This document shows positions 7,469 to 35,957 of a DNA stretch of 39,892 nt, piece by piece. The notes beneath the pieces are model-generated. The model had not been told where the DNA came from and made no database searches. It was given only the letters and a program-made list of their open reading frames with translations. Numbering within the stretch: the stretch's first letter is position 1; each line of letters begins with the position of its first letter. The DNA is from a virus. The position numbers and the translations under genes are program-made. The stretch covers positions 1 through 39,892 of IMG/VR virus record IMGVR_UViG_3300021964_000174; one strand, written 5' to 3'.

Positions 7469-7702
7469 TTAGGTTGTGTACGGTGATGCTTCTGACAGCA
7501 CCAGTGACGTTCCATTGTCGGTGATGACACGGGCGCGGAACGTAGCGCCCACGTTGGTGCTCGACGTGATCGCAATCTGGACATTCACGCGGTCTTCGGC
7601 CTTCACGCCGGTCGAGGTATAAGACGAGATGGTTGCAGATCCACTGGTTGCGGTGCCGCTGCCGAGCTTGATCGGGCCTTTGTAAACGTCGCAGGTTGCC
7701 AT
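7469..7702 (-). CDS. Small beta-rich virion-type protein (77 aa)
   Basis: The ATG overlaps the stop of the DUF115-methyltransferase gene (TAATG). The product is short, rich in Thr, Ser, Val and Gly, with alternating hydrophobic positions consistent with an all-beta fold such as a head-decoration protein. There are no Cys-pair or enzyme motifs. It is likely structural because of composition and location; the exact role is not known. Confidence 0.55.
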   Translation of the reverse strand: MATCDVYKGPIKLGSGTATSGSATISSYTSTGVKAEDRVNVQIAITSSTNVGATFRARVITDNGTSLVLSEASPYTT

Positions 7703-9060
7703 TAGTCATTCTCCACGGTGAAGATGCCGTCGCCTTTGTAGTGAACGATCGGCCAGTGACGGGCCAGCTCTTCGCTCCACCAAACGTTGTCATGTACGCT
7801 CAAGTGCAGCGGCGTGCCCAAGAGGACCGGGCCAAACCCGTCCGGCTCGAACTCGATACGGAATAAGCAACCGCGACTGACGGCGCTGGAAATGTTTTCA
7901 AGAACGCTTGAAACTTCACCGGGCGGGATGTGCTCCATTACGTCGCAACAATACCCGTATTCGGCTGAAATTGGCAGGGGTTTTGACAGGTCTGCCTTCG
8001 TAAATGGCAAGCCCATGGCCGCTTCGTCACGCGAGTTTTCAACGAAGTCGATCAGGTGGACGTTGTGGCCCTTCTCGGTGAGCTTCACCGCAGCGCGACC
8101 CGCCCCGCAGCCAAGGTCAAGCACGTCGGCGCCCGGCGGCAGCCAGCCATCAATGACGTGCACGATCTGCTCGGCAGGTGACATCCGCCCATAGTCGGGG
8201 CTCTCCCACACGATGGCGTATTTCTCGGCCTCGGTCATCGCTGCCGCCTTTTGTTTCATGCGCCAGCGCTCGGGCAGAATGCCATCGCCGTAAACCGTAA
8301 CCTTGGTCCCCATTCGCTTAAGCGCATCTTCAATGACGAAAAAGTATTGATACTGGACCGCCATCGTAAAACTCATGCAATAGGCGCGATCGCCAAAGCG
8401 CTGATACATGAGCGGTTCATCATCGTTCATTGGCTGGCTATAGGCGTGACGTTCTTCGCCTTTCACGCTGCTGTCGAACCCAAACACATGCAGATCACGA
8501 TGCCCCATAGCGTGGGCAAGGCAGAGCGCACTGTTGCCGACCGATCCACCGCCGCCAATGAGCGTATAACCGCCCGCGTTGCGCTGGACGGTCGAAAAGT
8601 TGTCTTCGATGTCAGGTGAGTTGAGATGCACCATCTCGGTGCGGGCCTCGGGCACCAGATTGAACAGCGCCGGGTGACACTGCGAGGCGAGCATGTAGTT
8701 ATGAGCGTCTGGGTCAATCAGGCTTGCGTTCTCAGGCCGTGCATCAATGATGAATTGAAAATCAACCTCAATGCCGCGCTCTGATAAGAACTTAGATGCG
8801 CCGTTGACGGCAATCACAACGTAGTCTTCAGCCATCTTGCGGATCATGGCCGTGTTATCTGCCAGCGACGGACCACCACCGACGATGAGGGCGCGTTCTT
8901 CAAACGCATCCCGGCACGCAAACCACTTAAATCCCCGCGTTGAATTCACCGCAACGTTGCGATTAATGCCCTCCAACGTGACGTTGGACGTAACGGCAAC
9001 CTGCAGCGGCGCCGATGCATGCGGGTTTTGCAGTTCAACCATGAAATCGTGATTTTCCAT
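7702..9060 (-). CDS. DUF115 (MptE/Maf-like) domain fused to class I SAM methyltransferase (452 aa)
   Basis: Two domains are visible. Residues about 50-265 carry the DUF115/MptE-like layout: GGGPSL (61-66), IAVNGASK (83-90), QFIIDARPEN (102-111) and a GGGGSVGNSALCLA segment followed by HVFGFD (169-196). This superfamily includes 6-hydroxymethylpterin diphosphokinases and the Maf-type glycosyltransferases that add nonulosonic sugars. Residues about 295-452 are a Rossmann methyltransferase with motif I VLDLGCGAG (313-321), HLIDF (335-339) and CCDVMEHIP. The ATG is preceded by GGGAGGGG. The gene sits among capsid genes. A role in modifying a virion protein or a host glycan is possible; substrates cannot be read from sequence. 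Confidence 0.75.
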   Translation of the reverse strand: MENHDFMVELQNPHASAPLQVAVTSNVTLEGINRNVAVNSTRGFKWFACRDAFEERALIVGGGPSLADNTAMIRKMAEDYVVIAVNGASKFLSERGIEVDFQFIIDARPENASLIDPDAHNYMLASQCHPALFNLVPEARTEMVHLNSPDIEDNFSTVQRNAGGYTLIGGGGSVGNSALCLAHAMGHRDLHVFGFDSSVKGEERHAYSQPMNDDEPLMYQRFGDRAYCMSFTMAVQYQYFFVIEDALKRMGTKVTVYGDGILPERWRMKQKAAAMTEAEKYAIVWESPDYGRMSPAEQIVHVIDGWLPPGADVLDLGCGAGRAAVKLTEKGHNVHLIDFVENSRDEAAMGLPFTKADLSKPLPISAEYGYCCDVMEHIPPGEVSSVLENISSAVSRGCLFRIEFEPDGFGPVLLGTPLHLSVHDNVWWSEELARHWPIVHYKGDGIFTVEND

Positions 9061-17618: not shown

Positions 17619-17846
17619 TCAAGTGGTTTTCGGTGCAAAATCGCCACACCATTCTGTGCACAACGTTACAGGCCAAGCAACATACAGATCAGAATGATCC
17701 TCCAATGCACAACTCTCGAAGAGTTGCTTTGCCAACAATGCATAGTTCACGGCAGTTGGGGCGTGTCTTCTGCATTCGCCGGGTTCTAAGTTGTCAGATA
17801 CCCAATAGGCGCAATTTTTACATTTCCTCTTGGCATTATCACTCAT
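17619..17846 (-). CDS. Small cysteine-rich, probably zinc-binding protein (75 aa)
   Basis: Cysteines occur as CKNC (residues 9-12), then C25, C46, C62 and C66. A CxxC pair followed by spaced cysteines suggests a zinc knuckle or ribbon. The start overlaps the upstream DNA-binding gene by 8 bases, and this gene is in the same leftward run. There is no membrane segment. Function is unknown. Confidence 0.6.
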   Translation of the reverse strand: MSDNAKRKCKNCAYWVSDNLEPGECRRHAPTAVNYALLAKQLFESCALEDHSDLYVAWPVTLCTEWCGDFAPKTT

Positions 17847-18462
17847 CGTTCATTCCTTTCTGGTGCAGGACGGTCATGGCGCGCTCTCGGCTGGCGTGCC
17901 GTATTCCGAGGCGTTCTTCGAGCAACATGCAATATTGCTTCATCTCCTGGAGTTCTATGATGTAGTCCATGCAACGGGCCTCGGCGGCGTCGCGTTGCTT
18001 CTCGTAGTCTGGTGCCAATTGCAATTTGAATCTAAGGTTGCTGTTTTCCGCTAGAAGGCTGGCTTTCGTGGCTTCGAGGGCTCTTATCTTGGCCTCAAGG
18101 CGTCTGATCTTGTTGTCTGCGCTTGGTGGCTTTGGTTGGCGCGGCGGGCGCTGGGTCTTGGCGTTTGGCGTGTGGCGGATATTGGCTCGGCGCTTCATGT
18201 GCCAGGCGATGCTGGACATGTCCGCATGATCGCGACCGATCCATGCTTCGATTGGGCTGCATAGGTTGCGCCTCTCTTCCCGCTCGGCCTTTACAATCAT
18301 CTCCCTCGCTCTTGACTGTGAAACGCCGAGAAATTCGCCGATCTCCCTGTAGGTGTGGGTTGTGGTCCGTCTGAGCCGTAAGGCGGCGTGGCGGCGGTGC
18401 CAATGCCGCTCACGCTCTTGGATGTTGTCGGGCACGAGGCCGTTTTCGACGATCTCAGCCAC
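17839..18462 (-). CDS. HTH DNA-binding protein with coiled coil (207 aa)
   Basis: Residues about 36-60 (THTYREIGEFLGVSQSRAREM) form a clear helix-turn-helix of the sigma-70-region-4/LuxR-like or ParB-like size. Further on there is a basic proline-rich linker (about 95-115) and a coiled coil (115-200) for dimerisation. It sits just upstream of the terminase genes, so it could be a late-gene regulator or a packaging-related protein. It overlaps the upstream gene by 8 bases. Confidence 0.55.
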   Translation of the reverse strand: MAEIVENGLVPDNIQERERHWHRRHAALRLRRTTTHTYREIGEFLGVSQSRAREMIVKAEREERRNLCSPIEAWIGRDHADMSSIAWHMKRRANIRHTPNAKTQRPPRQPKPPSADNKIRRLEAKIRALEATKASLLAENSNLRFKLQLAPDYEKQRDAAEARCMDYIIELQEMKQYCMLLEERLGIRHASRERAMTVLHQKGMNDE

Positions 18463-25347: not shown

Positions 25348-25367
25348 GCCCACAATGAGTACAGTGC

Positions 25368-25487
25368 ATGAAATGGAAACTGCTTGCAGCTGCATCGCTG
25401 CTCGTCCCATGGAACGCCTACGCGGCGGACCTCGGCGGAAATTGCTGCGCGGATCTCGAAGAACGGGTTGCCGAGCTTGAAGCCACG
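25368..25487 (+). repeat. Duplicate of the first 120 bp of the porin gene
   Basis: This segment matches 27853-27972 at 117 of 120 positions, by eye. The three differences are silent (ctg/cta, aat/aac, gcg/gcc). Similarity begins at the start codon and ends at codon 40. Flanks on either side are unrelated. Confidence 0.9.
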
Positions 25488-25721
25488 CTAGTTGCGTGTG
25501 TGGTGTTCGCTCTGGGCATGTGGCTGCTGTGTGTCGGCTACATGCTCCGAGCGGAGTATCTGGAGAAGCGAGATGGGAAAAGACAAGATGCCAAGAACAG
25601 CATTAGGCTGGTTGAAAGTGCGCGAGATCGACGCCGCGCCAGCAGAAGACTTCGAGACCGTAGAAGATGGGAACGTGGTTCGGCTGAAGCAAAGGGAAAC
25701 CGAACTATTCGCCGCCGCTAG
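25368..25721 (+). CDS. Chimeric protein: porin N-terminus fused to a membrane segment (117 aa)
   Basis: Residues 1-40 are identical to those of the porin at 27853. They comprise a signal peptide (about 1-20, ending AYAA) and the short coiled coil DLEERVAELEAT. From residue 41 the sequence differs: a hydrophobic segment (about 41-59) and then a strongly basic tail. The tail from about residue 69 overlaps the 25573 gene in another frame, so it may be fortuitous coding. The chimera could be exported and inserted in the membrane. It may be a duplication relic or a new gene formed by capturing the porin 5' end. Confidence 0.5.
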   Translation: MKWKLLAAASLLVPWNAYAADLGGNCCADLEERVAELEATLVACVVFALGMWLLCVGYMLRAEYLEKRDGKRQDAKNSIRLVESARDRRRASRRLRDRRRWERGSAEAKGNRTIRRR

Positions 25722-25836
25722 GGAAGCCCAGAACAAGATCACCCACTACACAGCTGAGCTTGATCGCATCTATCGTGAGATCGACAAGTGCTGCCAGGCG
25801 ATCAACTGCCGGCTTCAGACGGGGGACGATCAATGA
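25573..25836 (+). CDS. Small coiled-coil protein upstream of the ERF gene (87 aa)
   Basis: The ATG at 25573 follows GGAGAAG. The protein has an acidic centre and a helical C-terminal half (RETELFAAAREAQNKITHY... then IYREIDKCCQ). Its stop overlaps the ERF gene start (ATGA). It overlaps the chimeric gene's tail in another frame. Its function is probably in recombination or a regulatory step, but only context says so. Confidence 0.55.
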   Translation: MGKDKMPRTALGWLKVREIDAAPAEDFETVEDGNVVRLKQRETELFAAAREAQNKITHYTAELDRIYREIDKCCQAINCRLQTGDDQ

Positions 25837-26507
25837 GACACGTCCAAGACATGCCCCCTTCTATTGTCGTCGCAATTGCGAAAATACAGAAGGCTATGGA
25901 GGCCGTCGAGCACGACGGAACGAACACCCACGGCAATTACAAATTCGCATCGACGGATGCTGTTTATGCGGCGCTTTCAGCTAAGATGGGCGAAGTTGGG
26001 CTAACTATTATTACACTGGAAGACCCGCCAGAGTTCAAGCAAATAGATGGTCCAAAGGGTCCGCAGAGATGGTGCCAATTCACGTTCCGTTTTGTTCTTG
26101 CAACCGAGGATGGCACTTGGACGGACGAAAGGTGTTGTCGTACCCTTCACATGCAAATCCTCGGGCCGCAGAGTTACATGGCAGCGCAATCCTACTGCGA
26201 GAAGGCGTTTCTTAGATCGCTCTTTAAGATACCGACCGGCGATCTTGATCTTGATCAACTGCCGTCTGACGGGGCAACGGAAGGCGAAAAGAAATCATCA
26301 GCGGCTGCTAAGCGCGAAGGACTGTGGGATCAGTTTAACGCAGAACTCGACATGGCCTTGGAGATAGAAGACGGCCATCAGGCAATGAGTGCGATCGTTG
26401 CTGTCGAGCAGCGGTATAATTCAAAGATGCCTAAGAAGTGGAAGGAGCCGATGTGGGATGCGCTGGAGCGTGCCCGGCAGACGGCTGGCCAGAGGCAACT
26501 GCTGTGA
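25833..26507 (+). CDS. ERF-family single-strand annealing recombinase (224 aa)
   Basis: The start at 25833 overlaps the previous stop (ATGA). The N-terminal half has the ERF pattern: 'IVVAIAKIQKAMEAV' then 'NTHGNYKFASTDAVYAALS' and KMGEVGLTII. Later 'ILGPQSYMAAQSYCEKAFL' and 'LFKIPTGDLD' (AxSYxxRyaLxxlfgIptgDdD) also match. ERF proteins anneal complementary single strands and can circularise the injected genome or promote recombination. The C-terminal 60 residues are a variable helical tail. Confidence 0.85.
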   Translation: MRHVQDMPPSIVVAIAKIQKAMEAVEHDGTNTHGNYKFASTDAVYAALSAKMGEVGLTIITLEDPPEFKQIDGPKGPQRWCQFTFRFVLATEDGTWTDERCCRTLHMQILGPQSYMAAQSYCEKAFLRSLFKIPTGDLDLDQLPSDGATEGEKKSSAAAKREGLWDQFNAELDMALEIEDGHQAMSAIVAVEQRYNSKMPKKWKEPMWDALERARQTAGQRQLL

Positions 26508-26956
26508 GGCCGTTTCTCACGATCGCCAGCGATCTAGAGCGGCGAGCGGACATCAGGCGGGGCGACGCAATTGCGCCCCTCTTGATTGAAGCGATGCAGG
26601 CGATCCGCGAACTGGTGCGGCGGCTTGATTTGAAGCCCCGCTCCACGCCGCAGCACAGACGGTTCTTTGCGCTGATCAAAGCAGCCTTTAAGCACTGGCC
26701 CGAGGGTCATGAGGTTCAATGTGGGTCAGCGGAAGGGCTGCGCGATTATCTCCAGATCAAGGCAGGGTTTGGCGTGCCTCACAAGATCGTAAGAGGCGAC
26801 ACAACCTACATCTGGTTCGAGCACAAGTCTGTCGCTTACGACAAGATGAGCCAAGAAGAGTTCTCGAAGTTAGCTGACAAGGTTGAAGCGATCATAGAGG
26901 ACACCATCGGCGTGCCAGCGGACAAACTTTTGGAGATGGATCGGAGCGAGACGTGA
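26504..26956 (+). CDS. DUF1367-like recombination-associated phage protein (150 aa)
   Basis: Start GTG at 26504 overlaps the ERF stop (GTGA). 'HRRFFALIKAAFKHWPEG' (about residues 47-64), 'LRDYLQIKAGFG' and the C-terminal 'KMSQEEFSKLADKVEAIIE' follow the order of motifs in DUF1367 proteins, found next to recombination genes in lambdoid phages. Its activity is unknown. Coupled genes on both sides support the assignment to the recombination operon. Confidence 0.6.
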   Translation: MRPFLTIASDLERRADIRRGDAIAPLLIEAMQAIRELVRRLDLKPRSTPQHRRFFALIKAAFKHWPEGHEVQCGSAEGLRDYLQIKAGFGVPHKIVRGDTTYIWFEHKSVAYDKMSQEEFSKLADKVEAIIEDTIGVPADKLLEMDRSET

Positions 26957-27180: not shown

Positions 27181-27247
27181 GGCAACCGGTGTTCCTTATA
27201 TCTCCGTGGAGTATTGGTATCATGCAAACGGTTATCATAGCGATTAG
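27044..27247 (+). CDS. Small HTH-like protein (67 aa)
   Basis: The start is chosen at the ATG at 27044; in-frame ATGs at 26999 and 27005 are possible. The C-terminal half 'DLAKLGHTPWTISEATGVPY' then ISVEYWYHANGY is a convincing short helix-turn-helix. It overlaps the preceding gene by 137 bases in another frame, so one of the two starts may be misjudged or an ancient frameshift may have split a single gene. Confidence 0.4.
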   Translation: MSSVGATSTAPDNTKSSDASEPELVDVIDQMHDLAKLGHTPWTISEATGVPYISVEYWYHANGYHSD

Positions 27248-27593
27248 TGTATGGGTTCCGGTGTCGCTGTTGGCGGCGGTGGTGTTTTATGTGCTGGTTC
27301 GATCGGGGGAGGATGATGGGCGATCGGCAGAACTTTACGCAGAAGACGAGAAACAACGCCTTCTTGATCGCCAAAGGACGCTGCGCTCGTTGCAACAAGA
27401 AGATCATGGCGGGCGAGACATGGCACGCGGATCACATAAATCCGGACTTCTTCGAGGGAATGAACGACATCGCAAATTGCCAAGTAATGTGTATCCCCTG
27501 CCACAAAGAAAAAACAAAAACAGACCGCAAGAATATTGCCAAGTCACATCGTTTGCAAAAGCGCGAGCGTGGCGAGCGAGGTCGCAAGCGTAA
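27222..27593 (+). CDS. Possible single-pass membrane protein overlapping the HNH gene (123 aa)
   Basis: The ATG at 27222 overlaps the end of the HTH-like gene. Residues 3-26 form a clear membrane segment followed by acidic and basic residues. From about residue 32 the frame overlaps the HNH gene entirely, and its sequence there looks like out-of-frame coding. Either a short membrane peptide is made with an incidental tail, or this frame is not used. Confidence 0.3.
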   Translation: MQTVIIAISVWVPVSLLAAVVFYVLVRSGEDDGRSAELYAEDEKQRLLDRQRTLRSLQQEDHGGRDMARGSHKSGLLRGNERHRKLPSNVYPLPQRKNKNRPQEYCQVTSFAKARAWRARSQA

Positions 27594-27666
27594 GGGTTCG
27601 CCAATGATGGGAACGTTGGCCAGTGGCTGGAAAAAGCCAATGCGTGGAAAAGCTCATAAGAGATAG
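27316..27666 (+). CDS. HNH endonuclease (116 aa)
   Basis: GGGGGAGG precedes ATGATG; the second ATG (27316) has the better spacing. CARC (23-26) and CIPC (59-62) bind structural zinc. WHADHI (36-41), N54 and H63 supply the HNH catalytic set. The C-terminal 45 residues are very basic. In many phages such proteins sit beside terminase genes; here it is in the recombination operon, more than 10 kb from terminase, so a role in recombination or host-DNA degradation is also possible. Confidence 0.8.
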   Translation: MGDRQNFTQKTRNNAFLIAKGRCARCNKKIMAGETWHADHINPDFFEGMNDIANCQVMCIPCHKEKTKTDRKNIAKSHRLQKRERGERGRKRKGSPMMGTLASGWKKPMRGKAHKR

Positions 27667-27699
27667 CGCGCGGCGAAATCCCATCTCCCGCTGTGCGCT

Positions 27700-27733
27700 G
27701 GCCCCGGAGGTAGCGCGATATGCCTTCGGGGCC
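27700..27733 (+). terminator. Strong hairpin after the HNH gene, before the porin
   Basis: GGCCCCGGAGG (27700-27710) pairs with CCTTCGGGGCC (27723-27733), eleven pairs including one G-U, with a 12-base loop. No T-run follows, so it may be a Rho-assisted or processing structure separating the recombination operon from the porin transcript. No convincing porin promoter was found in 27734-27852. Confidence 0.45.
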
Positions 27734-27852
27734 ACACATCCCCAACATAACTGCAACACGCCTTGATTGAACCTCAAATCAGGCGCTTGGTGATAGGTGC
27801 ATCGCTAGTGCTGCGTCTTTGCGTGTATGGCCAACACACAAGGACTGATCTC

Positions 27853-27972
27853 ATGAAATGGAAACTACTTGCAGCTGCATCGCTGCTCGTCCCATGGAAC
27901 GCCTACGCGGCGGACCTCGGCGGAAACTGCTGCGCCGATCTCGAAGAACGGGTTGCCGAGCTTGAAGCCACG
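27853..27972 (+). repeat. First 120 bp of the porin gene, duplicated at 25368-25487
   Basis: This is the parent copy of the direct repeat described at 25368. It encodes the signal peptide and coiled coil. Confidence 0.9.
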
Positions 27973-28995
27973 ACGGCGCGGAAGGGCAACCGTAAGGTCA
28001 GCCTGGAAGTCTCCGGACACATCCACGAGATGATCTTCTGGCGTGATGAAATTGAACTGCCCGGCGAAGAACAGGTTGACCTGTTCGACAAAGGCGGTCG
28101 GATCATGAACGATCCAAACAACTCGGGCCGGTTTCGGTTCAGGGGCTCCGCCAAGGTCAATCAAGACTTTGAAGCTGGCTTCCTCATGGAGCTGGGCGTC
28201 AGCCACAACGAAGAGGATGAGCCCTTTGAGGTTCGTCATCAGGCGCTTTACGTGAAATCACGCGCGCTTGGTACGGTCTGGCTGGGTCAGACTTCATCCG
28301 CAACTGACGGCATTGTCGAGCTGGACCTGTCCAATGGATCGGTTGCTATGACTCTGGCCAACCCCTCCATGCTTGGCGGCGGGATCATGGACGGCGGTCG
28401 TGCTCCGGTCGTCAAATACATCACGCCAACGTTGGCTGGATTTGTGCTCTCTGCCGCTTGGGAAGATGAGGACACGTATGATTTCGCAGGTCGCTTTGCG
28501 AAAGAATACGGCGGCTTCCAGTTTGCTGCCGGGCTTGGTTACGCCAAATTCGACGGCGGGGATCGCATCTCTGGTTCGGCAAGCGTCAAGCACGTTGAAA
28601 CGGGTCTGTTCGCTTCTGGGATGTATGGTCGTCTGGATGACGGCGATGGTGACATCTTTGACGTTGATCTGGATCAATTCGGCGTTGCAGCATTTGACGC
28701 GGAGCAGTGGGGCGGTCGCCTAGGCGTTGATCGCAAATGGTTCGCCCTTGGTAAGACGACGATCTTTGGCGAATACAGCCAAATCAAGTTCAAAGACGGC
28801 GGCGGCGATCTGGACTATTGGGGCGCGGCTTTGGTGCAGTCGATCGACGCGGCAGCGATGGACATCTATGTTGCCTATCGCCGTGTTGAGCCTGATCTGA
28901 TCGTTGGCGAAGAGTGTGTTAGGAGAGAATGCAACGACATCGAATGGGATGACGGCATTGACGAATTCAAGGTCGGTGCCAGGATCAAGTTCTGA
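27853..28995 (+). CDS. Outer-membrane porin, Rhizobiales Porin_2 type (380 aa)
   Basis: A signal peptide (about residues 1-20, cleavage after AYA or AYAA) is followed by 'DLGGNCCADLEERVAELEAT' and TARKGNRKVSLEVSGHI. This N-terminal block, a Cys pair, a short trimerisation coil and the KVSL first strand, is the signature of porins of Bradyrhizobium and relatives. The rest alternates hydrophobic residues as in a 16-strand barrel and ends in F (KVGARIKF), as outer-membrane proteins do. Two cysteines lie in 'EECVRRECND'. It is shorter than typical host porins. The start is the ATG at 27853; upstream in-frame codons are leader. It is a cargo (moron) gene, outside the usual phage functions. Confidence 0.88.
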   Translation: MKWKLLAAASLLVPWNAYAADLGGNCCADLEERVAELEATTARKGNRKVSLEVSGHIHEMIFWRDEIELPGEEQVDLFDKGGRIMNDPNNSGRFRFRGSAKVNQDFEAGFLMELGVSHNEEDEPFEVRHQALYVKSRALGTVWLGQTSSATDGIVELDLSNGSVAMTLANPSMLGGGIMDGGRAPVVKYITPTLAGFVLSAAWEDEDTYDFAGRFAKEYGGFQFAAGLGYAKFDGGDRISGSASVKHVETGLFASGMYGRLDDGDGDIFDVDLDQFGVAAFDAEQWGGRLGVDRKWFALGKTTIFGEYSQIKFKDGGGDLDYWGAALVQSIDAAAMDIYVAYRRVEPDLIVGEECVRRECNDIEWDDGIDEFKVGARIKF

Positions 28996-29002
28996 TCAAA
29001 GC

Positions 29003-29030
29003 GTGTGGCGGTTCACCAGAGCCGCCACAC
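29003..29030. terminator. Convergent terminator-like hairpin between porin and lysis genes
   Basis: GTGTGGCGG (29003-29011) and CCGCCACAC (29022-29030) form a perfect nine-pair stem with a ten-base loop, eight bases after the porin stop. Leftward RNA would then read CGCUUUGAUC. T-runs are short on both sides, so it may act weakly in both directions where the two transcripts meet. Confidence 0.6.
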
Positions 29031-29068: not shown

Positions 29069-29434
29069 CTAGGGGAGCCCAACGAACCCACCAAGGAGTT
29101 GGCGCAGCGTGGCGGCGTCTCCCCGTGTTAGCAGACCCACGATCACGCCAATACCAACTAACAGGGTCATAGCCCATTGGATCAGGGCTTTCGTATGGTC
29201 CCGTTTCACTCTTTCTTCCTTCGTCAACTCGGTTGACATTTCTAAGCGGGCAATTCGCTCCGTTTGGTTTGCATTGATGCGGTGATGATCCCTCAAGTGC
29301 ATCTCGATATCCGCCAGTCTCCGCGAGTGCGCGGATATAACCATCTGACGGTCGTCTAAGATCGCGTCTATATATTCCGCTCTGGTTTCCAAGCGGGCTA
29401 GGCGCTCTGCGTTGTCCGTGACTGTGGCGTTCAT
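29069..29434 (-). CDS. XhlA-like coiled-coil membrane protein, lysis cluster (121 aa)
   Basis: GGTGGG precedes the ATG at 29434. A long charged coiled coil (about residues 5-75) with 'NAERLARLETRAEYIDAIL' is followed by one membrane segment (about 84-103). This is the layout of XhlA-type haemolysin/holin accessory proteins. As the last gene of the lysis cluster it may be the holin or a holin partner. A second frame within it (29013-29177) encodes a short hydrophobic C-terminus but is less convincing. Confidence 0.6.
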   Translation of the reverse strand: MNATVTDNAERLARLETRAEYIDAILDDRQMVISAHSRRLADIEMHLRDHHRINANQTERIARLEMSTELTKEERVKRDHTKALIQWAMTLLVGIGVIVGLLTRGDAATLRQLLGGFVGLP

Positions 29435-29452: not shown

Positions 29453-29683
29453 TCATGCGGCCTCACGATCACGCGCCTTGCAGCCCCATACTTGTCTGGC
29501 TTCGTTGGACTCCAAGACAGTTTTTGCGGTCTTGTCGGTGAGACGATCGCCTTTCCTCATCAGGATCGGCGGCCAGTCGCGGCAGACGGCTTCAGTATCA
29601 GTTATCAGCGGCATATTTTTTGCGCAGCCGGTTCCAAGCGCCAGTGCGCTTAATGCGGCGGCGAATATCACGAACCTTCTCAT
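29453..29683 (-). CDS. Rz1-like outer-membrane spanin lipoprotein (76 aa)
   Basis: AAGGGA precedes the ATG at 29683. A signal sequence (MRRFVIFAAALSALALGTGC) ends in a lipobox-like LGTGC with the acylated Cys at residue 20. G at the -3 position is slightly atypical. The mature part is about 56 residues. Its first 86 bases lie inside the Rz-like gene in another frame, the usual nested arrangement of spanins, which supports the call. Confidence 0.65.
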   Translation of the reverse strand: MRRFVIFAAALSALALGTGCAKNMPLITDTEAVCRDWPPILMRKGDRLTDKTAKTVLESNEARQVWGCKARDREAA

Positions 29684-29855
29684 TGCGTCGTTTCCCTTCT
29701 GCCTTCGACGCATCAACAACTTCTTGTTTACCTTCGTCGCGGTGACGTTCGGCGCGTTTGTGATCCCAGAACAGAACGCCCGCGCCAATGGCAGCGATCA
29801 CGCCCATCATGATCCCGCGCCGGGCAATCCAACCGGTGATGAGCGTCCAGATCAT
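29598..29855 (-). CDS. Rz-like inner-membrane spanin (85 aa)
   Basis: An N-terminal membrane segment (about residues 13-30) is followed by a highly charged helical region (HKRAERHRDEGKQ onwards). It overlaps the Rz1-like gene out of frame and is directly downstream of the endolysin and a small gene. Spanin pairs fuse inner and outer membranes at the end of lysis. It is shorter than lambda Rz, but size varies widely. Confidence 0.65.
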   Translation of the reverse strand: MIWTLITGWIARRGIMMGVIAAIGAGVLFWDHKRAERHRDEGKQEVVDASKAEGKRRNEKVRDIRRRIKRTGAWNRLRKKYAADN

Positions 29856-30055
29856 GCCGGCCGCGTGCCCCCTTTTATGCCAACGATGTCTTCATCGCGC
29901 AGATCAATGCCAGCACGGCGCCTTGCGCTCTCTTTGGCAATCCGCCGGGCCGAGTCCCGATCAGGGGCGTGAATGCGCATCCAGTGGCGATTGCCCCGGC
30001 GGGTTGTGATCTCCGGCACCATCTCAGATACGGCAACGAGATAGACGTAATTCAT
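29852..30055 (-). CDS. Small basic protein in the lysis cluster (67 aa)
   Basis: The ATG at 30055 overlaps the endolysin stop (ATGA), and its stop overlaps the Rz-like start. It begins MNYVYLVAVSEMVPEI and has an Arg-rich helix (SARRIAKESARRRAG). No membrane segment or enzyme motif is visible. A longer in-frame start exists at 30289, but it would overlap the endolysin. Confidence 0.5.
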   Translation of the reverse strand: MNYVYLVAVSEMVPEITTRRGNRHWMRIHAPDRDSARRIAKESARRRAGIDLRDEDIVGIKGGTRPA

Positions 30056-30846
30056 TCGACCGTCTCCGGTTCTTTCATCATGGTTTTCGCGGCAATGAAC
30101 ACGCTTAGGCACGCCAAGGCGGCCATCACAGGCGCCAGGCTGATGCCGGTGGACTGGACCATGCTGCCGACGGCGGAGAAGCCCATGAACTGATCGCCGG
30201 CGCTTGTTAGCAGATGACCCAAGTTTTCGAGCTGATCTGCAAACCAAGCACCAACGGAGGTGGCCACCGCGATTGGTGCGGAATACCACGGCACTTTAAC
30301 GGGCTTTGTCGCCGGTTCTTTAGGCGTTGCGATCGTGGTTGGCAGATCGACGGGCACGGGCAGAATGTCGTTGTCAGCAAACATGGCGGCCTCTGCCTTC
30401 CGGCGGCGCACCAGGCCAGCGTATTTCACTTTGGGACCGCCAGCGCCTTTGGACGCATACACCCACCTCATAAATTCAACCTCGGCGCGGGCGTAGTCGC
30501 CCCGGTTCAATCGTCGAAGGAGGGTAGAGCGCGTGAACGCGCCGACACCGAGATTGTATGTAAACGACACGAGGGCGTCGTGTTGCTGCTGATTAAGAGG
30601 CACGGTGACGAGGCGCTGCACATGGGCGGCGCACTCTTGCACTTCGGCGAGCAACGCTTCTTCAGCTTGTTCGCGTGACCAGCGCATTCCGAGCTTGACG
30701 CCGTGGATCGAGCCATAGCCGATCGTTGCGACCCCTGCCACGTCCAGATAAGCTGTGCAGGACCCGTCATCTTGTTCGACGTGGTATCCCTCAAAATGCT
30801 TGATCAGGTCAAGGCCGGGCTGGCTGATTGGGAGTAGCCCAGTCAT
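30052..30846 (-). CDS. Endolysin, GH24 (T4-like) lysozyme with C-terminal membrane segment (264 aa)
   Basis: Residues 1-150 are a phage lysozyme (N-acetylmuramidase). The catalytic set E19, D35 and T41 is visible in 'HFEGYH...YLDVAGVATIGYG', with the D-to-T spacing of T4 lysozyme. 'LNQQQHDALVSFTYNLGVGAF' and the following LLRRLN segment are typical. The C-terminal 75 residues include a membrane segment (about 233-254), an extension beyond the usual 150-165 residues. This could tether the enzyme or time its release. It has ATGA coupling on both sides. Confidence 0.85.
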   Translation of the reverse strand: MTGLLPISQPGLDLIKHFEGYHVEQDDGSCTAYLDVAGVATIGYGSIHGVKLGMRWSREQAEEALLAEVQECAAHVQRLVTVPLNQQQHDALVSFTYNLGVGAFTRSTLLRRLNRGDYARAEVEFMRWVYASKGAGGPKVKYAGLVRRRKAEAAMFADNDILPVPVDLPTTIATPKEPATKPVKVPWYSAPIAVATSVGAWFADQLENLGHLLTSAGDQFMGFSAVGSMVQSTGISLAPVMAALACLSVFIAAKTMMKEPETVE

Positions 30847-31536: not shown

Positions 31537-32022
31537 CTAGAGGAACGTGTGTGAGGGCAGGTTGTTGCTGTTGAGAAACGCTTCGACATCATTCCGCCGG
31601 AACAGGCGCACGCCGTCCACCTCGTAATAGGGAATGCCGCCCATGGTGCCGGGCGTGCCGTTGTTGCGGACGTATTGGGCGACCTTGGAGCGTTCCCACT
31701 CTTTCACGTCGTCAGGGTCGGCGGGCTCGGTATCGAGGCGGTCCCAGTCGAAGAACTCGGAGTGGATGCGCATCTTAATGACGTAGCCCGGCGCAAAGGT
31801 CGGCGGCGTGATCTCGTTGCCATCTTGGTCGTATTCGCCCGCTGCCGTCATGAACCGACCAGAGCCCGCCCAGGGCGCCCATTCAAGGCCGGCGCGAGCA
31901 ACTTTACGGGTGCCGCCCTCACCGTCGTCAATCGACTCAATGAGCGGACGCCCCGGTGGGTTGGTTTCACCCCAAGCGACCAAGGCGGCGCGGTTTGTGG
32001 CGTATAATACTAAGTCGATCAT
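31537..32022 (-). CDS. Hypothetical tail-region protein (161 aa)
   Basis: The ATG at 32022 overlaps the stop of the large tail gene (ATGA). An in-frame ATG at 32067 would overlap further. The protein begins MIDLVLYATNRAALVAWG and contains 'YYEVDGVRLFRRNDVEAFL' near the C-terminus. Mixed alpha-beta, no membrane segment. Its position suggests a tail-fibre chaperone or tip component. The 79 bases downstream (31458-31536) hold no clear signal. Confidence 0.5.
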   Translation of the reverse strand: MIDLVLYATNRAALVAWGETNPPGRPLIESIDDGEGGTRKVARAGLEWAPWAGSGRFMTAAGEYDQDGNEITPPTFAPGYVIKMRIHSEFFDWDRLDTEPADPDDVKEWERSKVAQYVRNNGTPGTMGGIPYYEVDGVRLFRRNDVEAFLNSNNLPSHTFL

Positions 32023-35000
32023 GATGAGGCTTCCTCTATTCCAGAGTCTCCAAGGTCTTCGTCCCATTGGCGGAAGAGGGCGATGGTGCCAGTGTATGCT
32101 TCTATTGAGGATGGGATTCTGCCAAACCGCAAGTTTGCAGTGGGTGCTGGCACTGCGGTGCCGCTTGTATCTGCTGTTGCTGCTGTCCCATCTGCCGCAA
32201 GGTTGGTATCCGTCGCCGTTACCCGCGTCGCAAGATTATAAGCCACGTTTACGCCCGGCGAGTACTGCGTTAGGCTTCCACTAACCGAGACCAGACCGGC
32301 ATCAGAGGTTGACCGGCGCAGCATTGACGGCGCTCCAGTTGCCGCACCCGCTGTTAGGTCTGTTCTTAATCTTATGTTGACAGTGTTATTGGAGGCAGAT
32401 TGCCAATCCCAAATACCGACTTCCGTACTAGAATCGTTGTCTGAGTACGTTATCTCGCCTTGAGTGTGCATACAAAGTGACCCGCCAGCCGTTGCAATGT
32501 TCGCTGCGGCGATTTCCAGCGTCTCGGCTGCTCTTGTCGCAGTTGCGCCAATCGTTGGGATGTAGCTGGAGGGGACGGAGCCGACTTCAAGCTGGGCGCC
32601 GTAAATACTAATATATCCAGACGTTGATAGAGTTTGGTCCGCCTCTAAAACTCTAATTTGCACAAAGCCTGACAGATCTGTTGTCGAGCTGAACGTGATA
32701 TAACACCGATACCATCCGTTCCCCACGTCCTCAATGTCATAAGTTGGGGGAGCTGTGTCTCCAGACAACTCCGTCCCCGTTACCCCGTTGGCTAAATCAA
32801 AACTCATACTGTAATCTGTATCGTATGCGTTGCAATCCAGTCCAAGCCAATCATTCGTTCCAGCTTTGGCATAAACAGAAAGACAATATGTAGTGGCACT
32901 AGAAATCGTATGGCCGTCGTAAACAGACCGGTTTGCGGTATTAGAGGAAGTCAGACGGTCTGCATTTGTCGTTCCGTCTGGCGATGTGTCAGCGTTTGCG
33001 GATATAGTGGCTCCTGATTTGGTCCAAGCAGCGTTGTCAAATTCAGAACTGTAAACTTGCAAATTCGTCGCCGCTGCTGACTCAACCGTAATCCCCTTGT
33101 TGACGTAGCTCGTCCCGTTGTACCGGTAGGACTTGCGGCGGGGGAGATAGACGGCGGAAGAGGTCGTTGGGACGTAGCTGTCAGAACGATCTGGGTTGTC
33201 GACCATGCCGCCTAGGTCGGAGCGGTAAATATGCGCGCCCCACGCATAAAACCCAGAAGTTCCATCGCCAGAATATGTTGGCCGTGAAGTTGAATATGTT
33301 GGGGTTGCGCTATTGCTGTTGCAAATGACGATACGCGATGTGCCAGCGGCAACCATGCTACCTTGGATCAAATACCAACCGTCACCGACTGATGTTGAAG
33401 CAAAGCCGTGATCGGTTCCGTCTGTGTCTGTGATTGTACCGCTTGACAAATCAACAACACAAGAACCTCTGTCCGATCCACCTGACACATTTTCAATCTG
33501 AACGCACGCATATTGTGCATCGTCGTCTTTTAAAAACACGCCTAAAGTATAAGTCGCCCCGACAACGGTTGATGACGATTCATCGTAAACAATGTGTGTC
33601 GTGCCTCCAGAATCTTCTTCAATTAGGTCGGCTGTCAGAGTTTTATCTGGCGCTATTGCTTGGTTTCCGGTAACTGTTGAGCCAGATTTGGTCCAAGTGC
33701 CCGCAGTGAAATCTTCAGAAGTTGCAAGAAGATTATGCGGTGCCCACTTCAGGTTCCCATCCGAGTCCGTCATCACCTTATTAGACGCACCCGTGTACGT
33801 GAACATTGAGTCGAAGTCCGACTCGACGCCATTCACACGGTAATACTCAGAGCCATTCCGGTTCGTGCCGTTGAAGTCAGCAACGGTCGCTGGGCCGAGG
33901 CTCGCAACCTCGTAGGGGTCAGACGCTCTCTCTATGCCAGAGTCTCCAAGGTCAACGTCCCATTGGCGGAATAGGGCAAAGGTGCCGTAATACCCATTTC
34001 CATCGTTTGTGAACAGCTGCCCAAATTGAAAATCATCGCCTGATATATCAAGAAGGGCTGTTGGGGTTGAGTCTTCTGTTGCAGATGTACCATCTTTGGC
34101 GACATTAATTGCACCGCTTGTATGTCTGCTTGCAACATTGTAAGCGACATTAATACCTGGGCTGTATTGTCCAGTCGTCAAGCTAACTGAATCTGAAGTT
34201 CCTGCTACACGTTGTGCGCCGTCAAGAGAGCCAGTATTTCCACCTGACGTATTCAAATCCAGAACAAGTTCGTTGCTTGCGTCTGGATATGACCCGTAAT
34301 AAACAAGCTCTCGCGTCGAACTTAGATCAGCATATGTGTGCTCACCCTGCATATGGAAGCTCATCGCCGTCGTACTCGCAGCCATATCACTGCCTGCAAT
34401 ACTCAGCGTCTCAGCTGCTCTTGTCGCAGTTGCGCCAGACGTGGGGATGTAGCTGGTCGGGACGGAGCCTGCTTCGAGCTGAAGCCCATAAACATAAAAG
34501 TTTTCAGTTCCCGCACCAGCAAACGCCTCATTCCCAGTTGTGCTTCCAAGTGTTGGAGACGCGGAACTCATTATCTGAAGTCTTGCGCGCGCGAAAGTGT
34601 TCGCAGAATCTTGGAATACGACATATAATCTGTAGATACCGTTTCCAACGTCTTCGTATCCGGAGTCTACAATTGACGCCGTTCCTCCACCTGCTTGCTC
34701 GTTTTGAGACCCCATGCTGTCTAAGTCAAACGTCACCGTTGTCCAGTCTGAACTGGCTGCATATGTACCAATCGCAACGTACTGAGCTGTCCCATTTTTT
34801 ACGAAAGCAGAAACTGTGTAATCGGTGGAGGTTGATATAGTAACTACCGGGTGCTCAAAATAATGAGCCTCGTTTGTCGTGTCAGTTATCAATGCCTCCG
34901 ACATTGACGTCGCACCGTCAGGGCCAGCAGACTGGGATGCCGTCAACGTTATAGAGTCTGTGTTTCCAATGTCCCATTGCGACGAATCATTACTGTCAGT

Positions 35001-35957
35001 CAGAAGATTCGTCGCCGCCGCTGACTCAACCGTGATCCCTTTGTTCTGCCAGATGGACCCGGTGTAACGGTAAGTGTTCCGGCGGGGGAGGTAGACGGCG
35101 GAGCCAGAAGTTGCAACATATTCTGGATAAAGCGCCAAGTCTGGGTCTGGGTTATCAACCATCCCGCCCAAGTCAGTGCGCCGTAACGACCAGCCCCAAA
35201 CATAAATCCCGTTGGCATAGGTCGTAGCGTCACCGCTAAACGTATTGTCCCCCGTTGTTGTTCCATTGGATATATAGACGGATGGGTCGAAAGCCGATGC
35301 GCTGGCACAGGTCACAGTCACCGTGCAAAGATACCACCCACTTCCTAAGTCAACGACCGTACCATTTGTATCGCCCGTGTTATCATCTCCCTTTGCCCCG
35401 GTGGACAAGTTCACATATAAAAGATCAGGGTCGCTGTCCGTTATTTGCGACGCAGATGCAAAACCAATAGCTGCGTGCGTTCTGTCTCCGGCTTTTAGAC
35501 AAACTGAAAAAGTATATTTCTCCCCGACCGCAAACGTATTTGGGTTATTAAATAAAATGCCGTGCGTTGCGGTTGCAGTGTTGTCTTCAATAAGTCTGTC
35601 GCCGTTCGACCCGCCAAGGGGATCGGTTGTCGCGTCCTGCGTATCAGTCGATCTAAAATTAGTAAAATACGTTGCCGATAGATCGTCTGACGTTGTTGCT
35701 GTATTATGCGGTGCCCATTTCAGATTCCCATCCGAGTCCGTCATCGTCTTTTTGGACGCACCCGTATAGGTGAACATTGAGTCGAAGTCGGTAACGGACC
35801 CGCCCGTGCGGTAATACTCCGTGCCTCCATTGAAGAAGCCAGAGAAATCAGCAACGGTGTCGGGGTCGTCGGTCCCAACGGTATAGGCCGACAAAACCAC
35901 AGGCGCAGACGATCCAGCGGCCGCCAACATTGCGCGGTATGAAACACCAATGGGCAT
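32019..35957 (-). CDS. Very large tail/receptor-binding protein with internal duplication (1312 aa)
   Basis: Residues about 34-690 and 691-1312 are two copies of the same block (period 657 residues). Each begins TVADF..G...EYYR...DFDSMFTYTGAS and then DSDGNLKWAPHN. Each copy has two jelly-roll, carbohydrate-binding-like modules, a GITVESAAATNL linker, a 'GSVP(T/S)SYIPT.GATATRAAETL' end motif and a LamG-like module ending LFRQWD.DLGDSGIE. Residues 1-33 are a separate N-terminal anchor. The gene is visibly richer in A+T than its neighbours, which suggests later acquisition. It probably binds the cell surface. Confidence 0.75.
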   Translation of the reverse strand: MPIGVSYRAMLAAAGSSAPVVLSAYTVGTDDPDTVADFSGFFNGGTEYYRTGGSVTDFDSMFTYTGASKKTMTDSDGNLKWAPHNTATTSDDLSATYFTNFRSTDTQDATTDPLGGSNGDRLIEDNTATATHGILFNNPNTFAVGEKYTFSVCLKAGDRTHAAIGFASASQITDSDPDLLYVNLSTGAKGDDNTGDTNGTVVDLGSGWYLCTVTVTCASASAFDPSVYISNGTTTGDNTFSGDATTYANGIYVWGWSLRRTDLGGMVDNPDPDLALYPEYVATSGSAVYLPRRNTYRYTGSIWQNKGITVESAAATNLLTDSNDSSQWDIGNTDSITLTASQSAGPDGATSMSEALITDTTNEAHYFEHPVVTISTSTDYTVSAFVKNGTAQYVAIGTYAASSDWTTVTFDLDSMGSQNEQAGGGTASIVDSGYEDVGNGIYRLYVVFQDSANTFARARLQIMSSASPTLGSTTGNEAFAGAGTENFYVYGLQLEAGSVPTSYIPTSGATATRAAETLSIAGSDMAASTTAMSFHMQGEHTYADLSSTRELVYYGSYPDASNELVLDLNTSGGNTGSLDGAQRVAGTSDSVSLTTGQYSPGINVAYNVASRHTSGAINVAKDGTSATEDSTPTALLDISGDDFQFGQLFTNDGNGYYGTFALFRQWDVDLGDSGIERASDPYEVASLGPATVADFNGTNRNGSEYYRVNGVESDFDSMFTYTGASNKVMTDSDGNLKWAPHNLLATSEDFTAGTWTKSGSTVTGNQAIAPDKTLTADLIEEDSGGTTHIVYDESSSTVVGATYTLGVFLKDDDAQYACVQIENVSGGSDRGSCVVDLSSGTITDTDGTDHGFASTSVGDGWYLIQGSMVAAGTSRIVICNSNSATPTYSTSRPTYSGDGTSGFYAWGAHIYRSDLGGMVDNPDRSDSYVPTTSSAVYLPRRKSYRYNGTSYVNKGITVESAAATNLQVYSSEFDNAAWTKSGATISANADTSPDGTTNADRLTSSNTANRSVYDGHTISSATTYCLSVYAKAGTNDWLGLDCNAYDTDYSMSFDLANGVTGTELSGDTAPPTYDIEDVGNGWYRCYITFSSTTDLSGFVQIRVLEADQTLSTSGYISIYGAQLEVGSVPSSYIPTIGATATRAAETLEIAAANIATAGGSLCMHTQGEITYSDNDSSTEVGIWDWQSASNNTVNIRLRTDLTAGAATGAPSMLRRSTSDAGLVSVSGSLTQYSPGVNVAYNLATRVTATDTNLAADGTAATADTSGTAVPAPTANLRFGRIPSSIEAYTGTIALFRQWDEDLGDSGIEEASS

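Follow-up and report, generated by a model that had tools for sequence, protein, structure and literature searches.

A phage-borne porin of an apparently long-standing virus-side lineage in which barrels seem to be swapped behind a front end that related viruses retain

Introduction

Why would a virus keep a complete gene for an outer-membrane porin next to the genes with which it lyses the cell? The question is raised by a contig of 39,892 nucleotides in the IMG/VR collection (IMGVR_UViG_3300021964_000174), whose whole length is called here the window. A sequence-only reading had proposed that this contig carries a Rhizobiales porin of the Porin_2 family as a moron, on the precedent of the lc porin of phage PA-2. 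The lc porin replaces a host porin that serves as receptor, and the phages that carry porins of the lc type are lambdoid and temperate. Here we compare the porin of the window with those of related phages, of bacterial hosts and of known structure, and weigh what it may do for the phage.

Results

The porin gene (27853-28995, plus strand) is a complete open reading frame of an ATG, 380 codons and a stop, and its product of 380 aa is the full porin that had been described, with a signal peptide, an N-terminal coil and a C-terminal Phe. The signal peptide, MKWKLLAAASLLVPWNAYA, occupies residues 1-20 (27853-27912, plus strand) and shows, when read by eye from the sequence, a K, a hydrophobic core and the junction AYA/AD. 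It is followed by a conserved periplasmic coil at residues 21-48 (27913-27996, plus strand; DLGGNCCADLEERVAELEATTARKGNRK), with the coil sequence ADLGGNCCADLEERVAELEATTARKGNRK, which the phages of this locus share at 96-100% identity and which is 87% identical in DNA to the best host coil. Residues 49-380 (27997-28992, plus strand) make up the barrel, which ends in ...IKF. Pfam searches show that Porin_4 (PF13609; 58 bits against a cut-off of 27, E=1.8e-15) is the only family matched at E up to 1, Porin_2 not being among the matches, and the earlier assignment to Porin_2 is therefore replaced by Porin_4.

AlphaFold2, supplied with an alignment of 38 related sequences from the window and the fetched loci, gave an unbroken beta-barrel of 16-strand topology (mean pLDDT 82, >90 over most strands). 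A barrel that breaks on modelling had been named beforehand as a refutation of the porin, and this outcome did not occur. The model has an N-terminal helix at residues 28-43 and a 34-residue third loop, L3, at residues 149-182 between strands 5 and 6. The best Foldseek matches were BpsOmp38, Omp32 and trimeric porins of the OmpF type (E about 1e-15 to 1e-13), and the constriction loop L3 of the model resembles that of Omp32 and Omp38.

The start of the contig (126 bases, from position 3) is repeated at its end, so that the two ends join to a closed contig of about 39.8 kb, indicating that the porin gene lies inside a phage genome. This genome encodes a terminase, a P22-like portal, a major head protein, a tail protein, an amidase and an endolysin, and the portal suggests that the phage is a podovirus. 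No plus-strand gene follows the porin before the point where an early operon of recombination genes meets the late genes for lysis, which run towards it. Directly upstream and on the same strand, the operon encodes an Erf-like ssDNA-annealing recombinase (25788-26507, an open reading frame from GTG 25788 with a likely start at ATG 25833; PHROG 155, E=4e-17), a NinB/Orf-like recombination mediator (26438-26956; PHROG 319, E=1e-13) and, as the last gene ahead of the porin, an HNH endonuclease (27247-27666; PHROG 589, E=4e-14). On the opposite strand the endolysin gene (30052-30846, minus strand; PHROG 7, E=6e-53) lies, with 29069-29434 and 29598-29855, in a lysis region that converges on the porin.

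Hairpins stand on both sides of the porin gene, and both fold far better than shuffled sequences. The one after the HNH gene (27699-27734, plus strand; -31.5 kcal/mol, z -3.8) resembles an insulator or a terminator and can also form at this position in five related phages (L003, L135, L134, L131 and L130), and the one where the porin and the lysis genes converge (29003-29030; -23.5 kcal/mol, z -5.3) is identical in L003. In the window, no clear T-run comes after either of them; in L134, a textbook terminator follows the porin. Between the first hairpin and the ATG lies a leader (27735-27852, plus strand), presumed to be the gene's own promoter region, in which alignment shows that GCGCTTGGTGA and TGGCCAA are conserved in six related phages, with AAGGA, resembling a Shine-Dalgarno sequence, at 27840-27844. 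A scan for sigma70 promoters gave no match at the porin and identified no promoter. The two hairpins, the convergent junction and the conserved leader agree with the moron layout that had been read from the letters, and so does the strand of the porin, opposite to that of the lysis genes.

In the leaders of the window and of the same five phages, a small hairpin with the loop TGGCCA lies beside the Shine-Dalgarno sequence; together with GCGCTTGGTGA it may be an operator or an RNA element. The stem of this hairpin does change on both sides between phages, but folding is mostly no better than that of shuffled sequences (z -0.5 to -2.5), so that we do not claim a structured leader RNA.

Neither the window nor its sister phage yielded a tyrosine or serine integrase, and lysogenic conversion is thus unsupported for the window phage. 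Integrases are present in other porin carriers (the source records of L136, L137 and L142). Elsewhere in the window, the minus strand carries a tail-fibre-like open reading frame of 1312 aa (32019-35957) with an internal duplication of about 1.9 kb, made up of four repeat pairs that are 77-91% identical at a spacing of 1.89-1.97 kb. The same strand encodes, in the structural gene region, an MptE-like domain (PF01973, E=1e-21) fused to a methyltransferase domain (7702-9060; Methyltransf_25, E=3e-7), and a protein with a motif resembling sigma-70 region 4 (17839-18462; Pfam E=2.5e-5, at the cut-off).

The sister phage L003 (IMG/VR 3300017963_000140, 39,778 bp; terminase 96% identical in amino acids to that of the window) has its porin in the same slot, which together with the closed contig led us to reject host contamination. 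From residue 21 on, the two porins are 94% identical in amino acids; their signal peptides are 45% identical, and that of L003 is the same as that of L135. Between window and sister, dN/dS is 0.064 for the whole porin gene and 0.05 for the barrel at a dS of about 0.9, compared with 0.07 for the terminase, 0.084 for the portal, 0.11 for the endolysin and 0.27 for NinB in the same pair. The porin is as constrained as the terminase and portal and more so than the endolysin or NinB, indicating that selection preserves the gene for the protein it encodes. Loop L3 is conserved at 34/34 residues. Purifying selection acts on the barrel in the close pairs (window/L003 and L130/L131), which give no hint that point changes accumulate rapidly.

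A scan of viral contigs found twenty loci. Four of them (L130, L131, L134 and L135) share the window's lysis cassette, with endolysins 81-87% identical in amino acids, and carry the porin in the same place, their barrels being only 42-49% identical to the window's. Porins occur also in clearly different phages (L140/L141, L132, L143, L136, L137 and L142), among them L140/L141, with a terminase of PHROG 2 and a portal of PHROG 1216, and L132, with a terminase of PHROG 38 and an antiterminator immediately upstream of the porin. The porin was absent from the examined DNA of other terminase relatives, whose loci are partial. Three viral porins used as queries had no match in 50,697 phage records, in which an NmpC control matched 42.

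Bacterial genomes scanned with the coil region gave matches in Hyphomicrobiaceae and allied Hyphomicrobiales, in line with the Rhizobiales (Hyphomicrobiales) lineage that had been claimed for the porin. One porin of the viral group (L064) sits in a prophage of a Hyphomicrobiaceae assembly. Judged by these matches and by this prophage, hosts of the Hyphomicrobiaceae kind are likely for the viral porin group. The Hyphomicrobium zavarzinii genome has 16 stretches that match the porin. We also considered L064 as a host porin inside the viral group and rejected this, its contig carrying a dUTPase, an SSB, HNH endonucleases and phage-type methyltransferases. Contig C383 of a Hyphomicrobiaceae assembly (L179/L180) has a prophage region with a porin of the viral type, a dUTPase, an SSB and several methyltransferases. 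Literature searches on phage-encoded porins in these hosts and on PA-2 yielded nothing usable, and a 2024 survey of Hyphomicrobiales prophages leaves porins unmentioned (PMC11080155).

The comparison with host porins that had been proposed was carried out as a tree of 50 porins (LG+C20 PMSF, unrooted, with host sampling guided by similarity and the long branch of L142 left out). Fourteen porins of viral contigs, the window's included, and the prophage porin are separated from the host porins with branch support of 97/92, and a larger, quicker tree gave the same split with support of 96. The exception is L132/L133, which is nested among host porins (98/98). Viral porins have a median length of 378 aa versus 440 aa for host porins. 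The tree places the porin of the window phage on the virus side and shows host capture only in L132/L133, and we therefore rejected the idea that the window phage took its porin from a host recently. Taken from these trees, the porin belongs to an apparently long-standing lineage on the virus side of Porin_4, the family to which the host's own porins belong.

We compared the leader and signal peptide (-70 to +60), the coil (+60 to +150) and the barrel between phages, using Fisher's test for the first segment versus the barrel. In this order of segments, DNA identity is 63%, 88% and 85% between the window and L003 (p=2e-8), 85%, 96% and 57% between L003 and L135 (p=6e-11), and 89%, 89% and 50% between L132 and L140 (p=4e-19). 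Thus, L003 joins the front end of L135 to the barrel of the window. L132 (9929-11684) has, from 5' to 3', a phage leader and signal peptide, a host-like coil, a host-like barrel and, after a terminator, the remnant of a phage-type barrel; its coil is 95% identical in DNA to that of H. zavarzinii, and the remnant matches the corresponding part of L140. Read in this way, L132 is a snapshot of gene replacement, in which a host-type barrel has come in and the former phage barrel is left as a stump. Together the segment breakpoints and the structure of L132 point to an exchange of barrels whose joints fall in the coil region. By the same segment comparison, exchange of the leader, signal peptide and coil is independent of that of the barrel; related viruses appear to retain the front part and to replace the barrel behind it. 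Identity between the porins is 15-32% in the outside loops, with many gaps, versus 46-57% in the strands. The loops of any porin diverge faster than its strands, so that loop variability alone does not prove selection driven by phages.

The 5' end of the porin gene is present a second time in the window. A stretch of 121 bp (25367-25487, plus strand), 97.5% identical, holds the base that precedes the start codon and codons 1-40; the first 120 porin bases, at 25368-25487, differ at three sites, all of them synonymous third positions (chance about 0.015 if random). This second copy interrupts the gene of a small membrane protein after codon 4. In L003 the gene is uninterrupted, with an empty site at L003:6874-6890 and the unfused protein MSSVLVACVVFALGMW...; the sister reads ATGAGTAGCGTA TTGGTTGCG and the window ATGAGTACAGTG, the 121 bp and then CTAGTTGCG. 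Comparison with the sister reveals a fusion open reading frame (25368-25721, plus strand) of 117 aa, which joins the porin signal peptide and the porin coil, in this order and in frame, to the original, single transmembrane segment. The clean junctions and the empty site in the sister make an assembly error unlikely for the second copy. The copy ends within the coil, which is the zone of the barrel-swap joints. The last part of the fusion is overlapped, in another frame, by an open reading frame (25573-25836, plus strand) that is conserved in the sister.

Discussion

What does the phage gain from its porin? A probable answer is that the virus re-dresses the infected cell's surface, and we give an even chance to the proposal that a working porin alters surface receptors or channels such that competing phages adsorb less. 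The porin would be expressed from its own leader and exported, would trimerise in the host outer membrane as a channel and would change the set of porins on display; with receptors or channels of the host surface changed or diluted, competing phages would adsorb less well. That barrels turn over while the front of the gene stays argues that what is seen from outside matters, and the frequent replacement of barrel alleles, most marked in the outside loops, is in keeping with selection on the parts visible from outside. The purifying selection on the barrel in the close pairs counts against this reading, as does the faster divergence of the loops in any porin. The conserved coil would probably serve as homology for barrel swaps with other phages and with the many porin genes of the host. 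The phage's Erf-like annealing protein may plausibly carry out the swapping, a role suggested solely by the location of its gene three genes upstream of the porin. We know of no receptor for any phage of these hosts. It is documented that podoviruses mostly use LPS, not porins, as terminal receptor (PMC8594841), and if the window phage is a podovirus, the excluded phage is thus more likely a competitor than the window phage itself.

The main rival to competitor exclusion is a role in physiology, whereby the porin keeps or alters the permeability of the outer membrane for the uptake of nutrients and ions while host porin genes are shut off, and barrel swaps track the solutes of host or habitat rather than competing phages. 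The general-porin fold, with its constriction loop like those of Omp32 and Omp38, the full conservation of L3 between the sisters and the apparent absence of an integrase, by which a benefit would be needed within one infection cycle, all speak for this role. We nevertheless consider it rather unlikely, since variation is greatest in the outside loops, the swaps take the whole barrel without singling out the channel, and no transport specificity is readable from the sequence; exclusion of competitors would be the simplest explanation. If the phage's own receptor were a host porin, its replacement would block superinfection or re-adsorption to debris, as has been proposed for PA-2 lc; this would suit the architecture shared with PA-2 and NmpC, in which the porin adjoins the lysis genes on the opposite strand. 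This is improbable for a phage whose P22-like portal suggests a podovirus, podoviruses being mostly users of LPS (PMC8594841), and we found no evidence of host porin down-regulation.

Hosts hold many porin copies, as the 16 stretches in H. zavarzinii illustrate, and L132 displays transfer from host to phage, so that a host porin might be acquired by recombination and retained as passive cargo. Purifying selection (dN/dS 0.05-0.06 at a dS of about 0.9) largely refutes this, and the persistence of the virus-side lineage in several phage backgrounds, with a conserved leader of its own, makes it still harder to hold; we regard it as highly improbable. Least credible of all is an artefact, in which host DNA was misjoined to a phage contig and the second copy is an assembly error. 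The contig does come from a metagenomic assembly, and the 121-bp copy is about as long as the 126-bp end overlap, a length typical of assembly k-mers. Against this, a sister that was assembled independently has a porin at the corresponding position, the two contig ends join, the second copy has three synonymous substitutions of its own, and both its flanks continue cleanly into a gene that is intact in the sister.

Beyond competitor exclusion, a further proposal, to which we give well under an even chance, is that the locus is a cassette for surface diversification. Leader, signal peptide and coil would be constant, and barrels would be swapped in at the coil, by homologous recombination, from other phages and from the many porin genes of the host; the second copy, anchored in the inner membrane, would be either a by-product or a coil-displaying interferer with host porin assembly. 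If this is true, the fusion product would show its coil in the periplasm and interfere with the assembly of those host porins that share the coil. With its natural set of alleles, this one locus makes it possible to test directly the old question of how a porin benefits a phage.

Among known systems, the closest solved folds are the 16-strand general porins Omp32 (Delftia/Comamonas), BpsOmp38 and OmpF, at 13-17% identity to the window porin. By sequence, the family profile found Omp32 weakly (E=0.002), with a match that begins after the coil. Two BFVD models from uncultured Caudovirales, A0A6J5L4P1 and A0A8S5S2G8 (OmpC-type and OprO/P-type), are porin folds of another family at 11-12% identity. 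Chromosomal porins of Hyphomicrobiaceae with the GGNCCADLEERVAELEATTARKGNRK coil share family and domain order with the viral porins, and their best coils reach 80-95% DNA identity; the viral porins differ in their separate branch (97/92), their shorter length (378 vs 440 aa) and their phage-specific leaders and signal peptides.

The precedent of PA-2 lc as a phage-carried porin is sound: lc is present in record J02580, and porins of the NmpC type were found in 42 phage records, PA-2 included, adjoining the lysis genes on the opposite strand. In DLP12 and phage ev017, the porin is flanked by the gene of the Q antiterminator on one side and the lysis genes on the other, and is again on the strand opposite to that of the lysis genes. 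The lc/NmpC (OmpD-type) porins are like that of the window in being full-length and phage-encoded, in adjoining and opposing the lysis genes and in having a regulatory leader of their own. In contrast, the window porin converges with the lysis genes whereas those of PA-2 and DLP12 diverge from them, the host order differs from that of the PA-2 lc phages, and no integrase was found in the window. The proteins also differ, Porin_4 in the window versus a Porin_1 type in NmpC: hhalign aligned only 86 columns at a probability of 39%, with no significant full-length match, the N-terminal coil conserved in the window group aligned to nothing in NmpC, and the query P0001 had no match in the phage set that contains lc. 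On these alignments, the porin of the window type is a family separate from PA-2 lc/NmpC, and the likeness between them is one of layout. The documented phage-borne porins that could be verified here are enterobacterial (lc/NmpC); a second, independent porin family, present in several kinds of phage and subject to barrel swaps, suggests that re-dressing the outer membrane is a strategy to which phages turn repeatedly.
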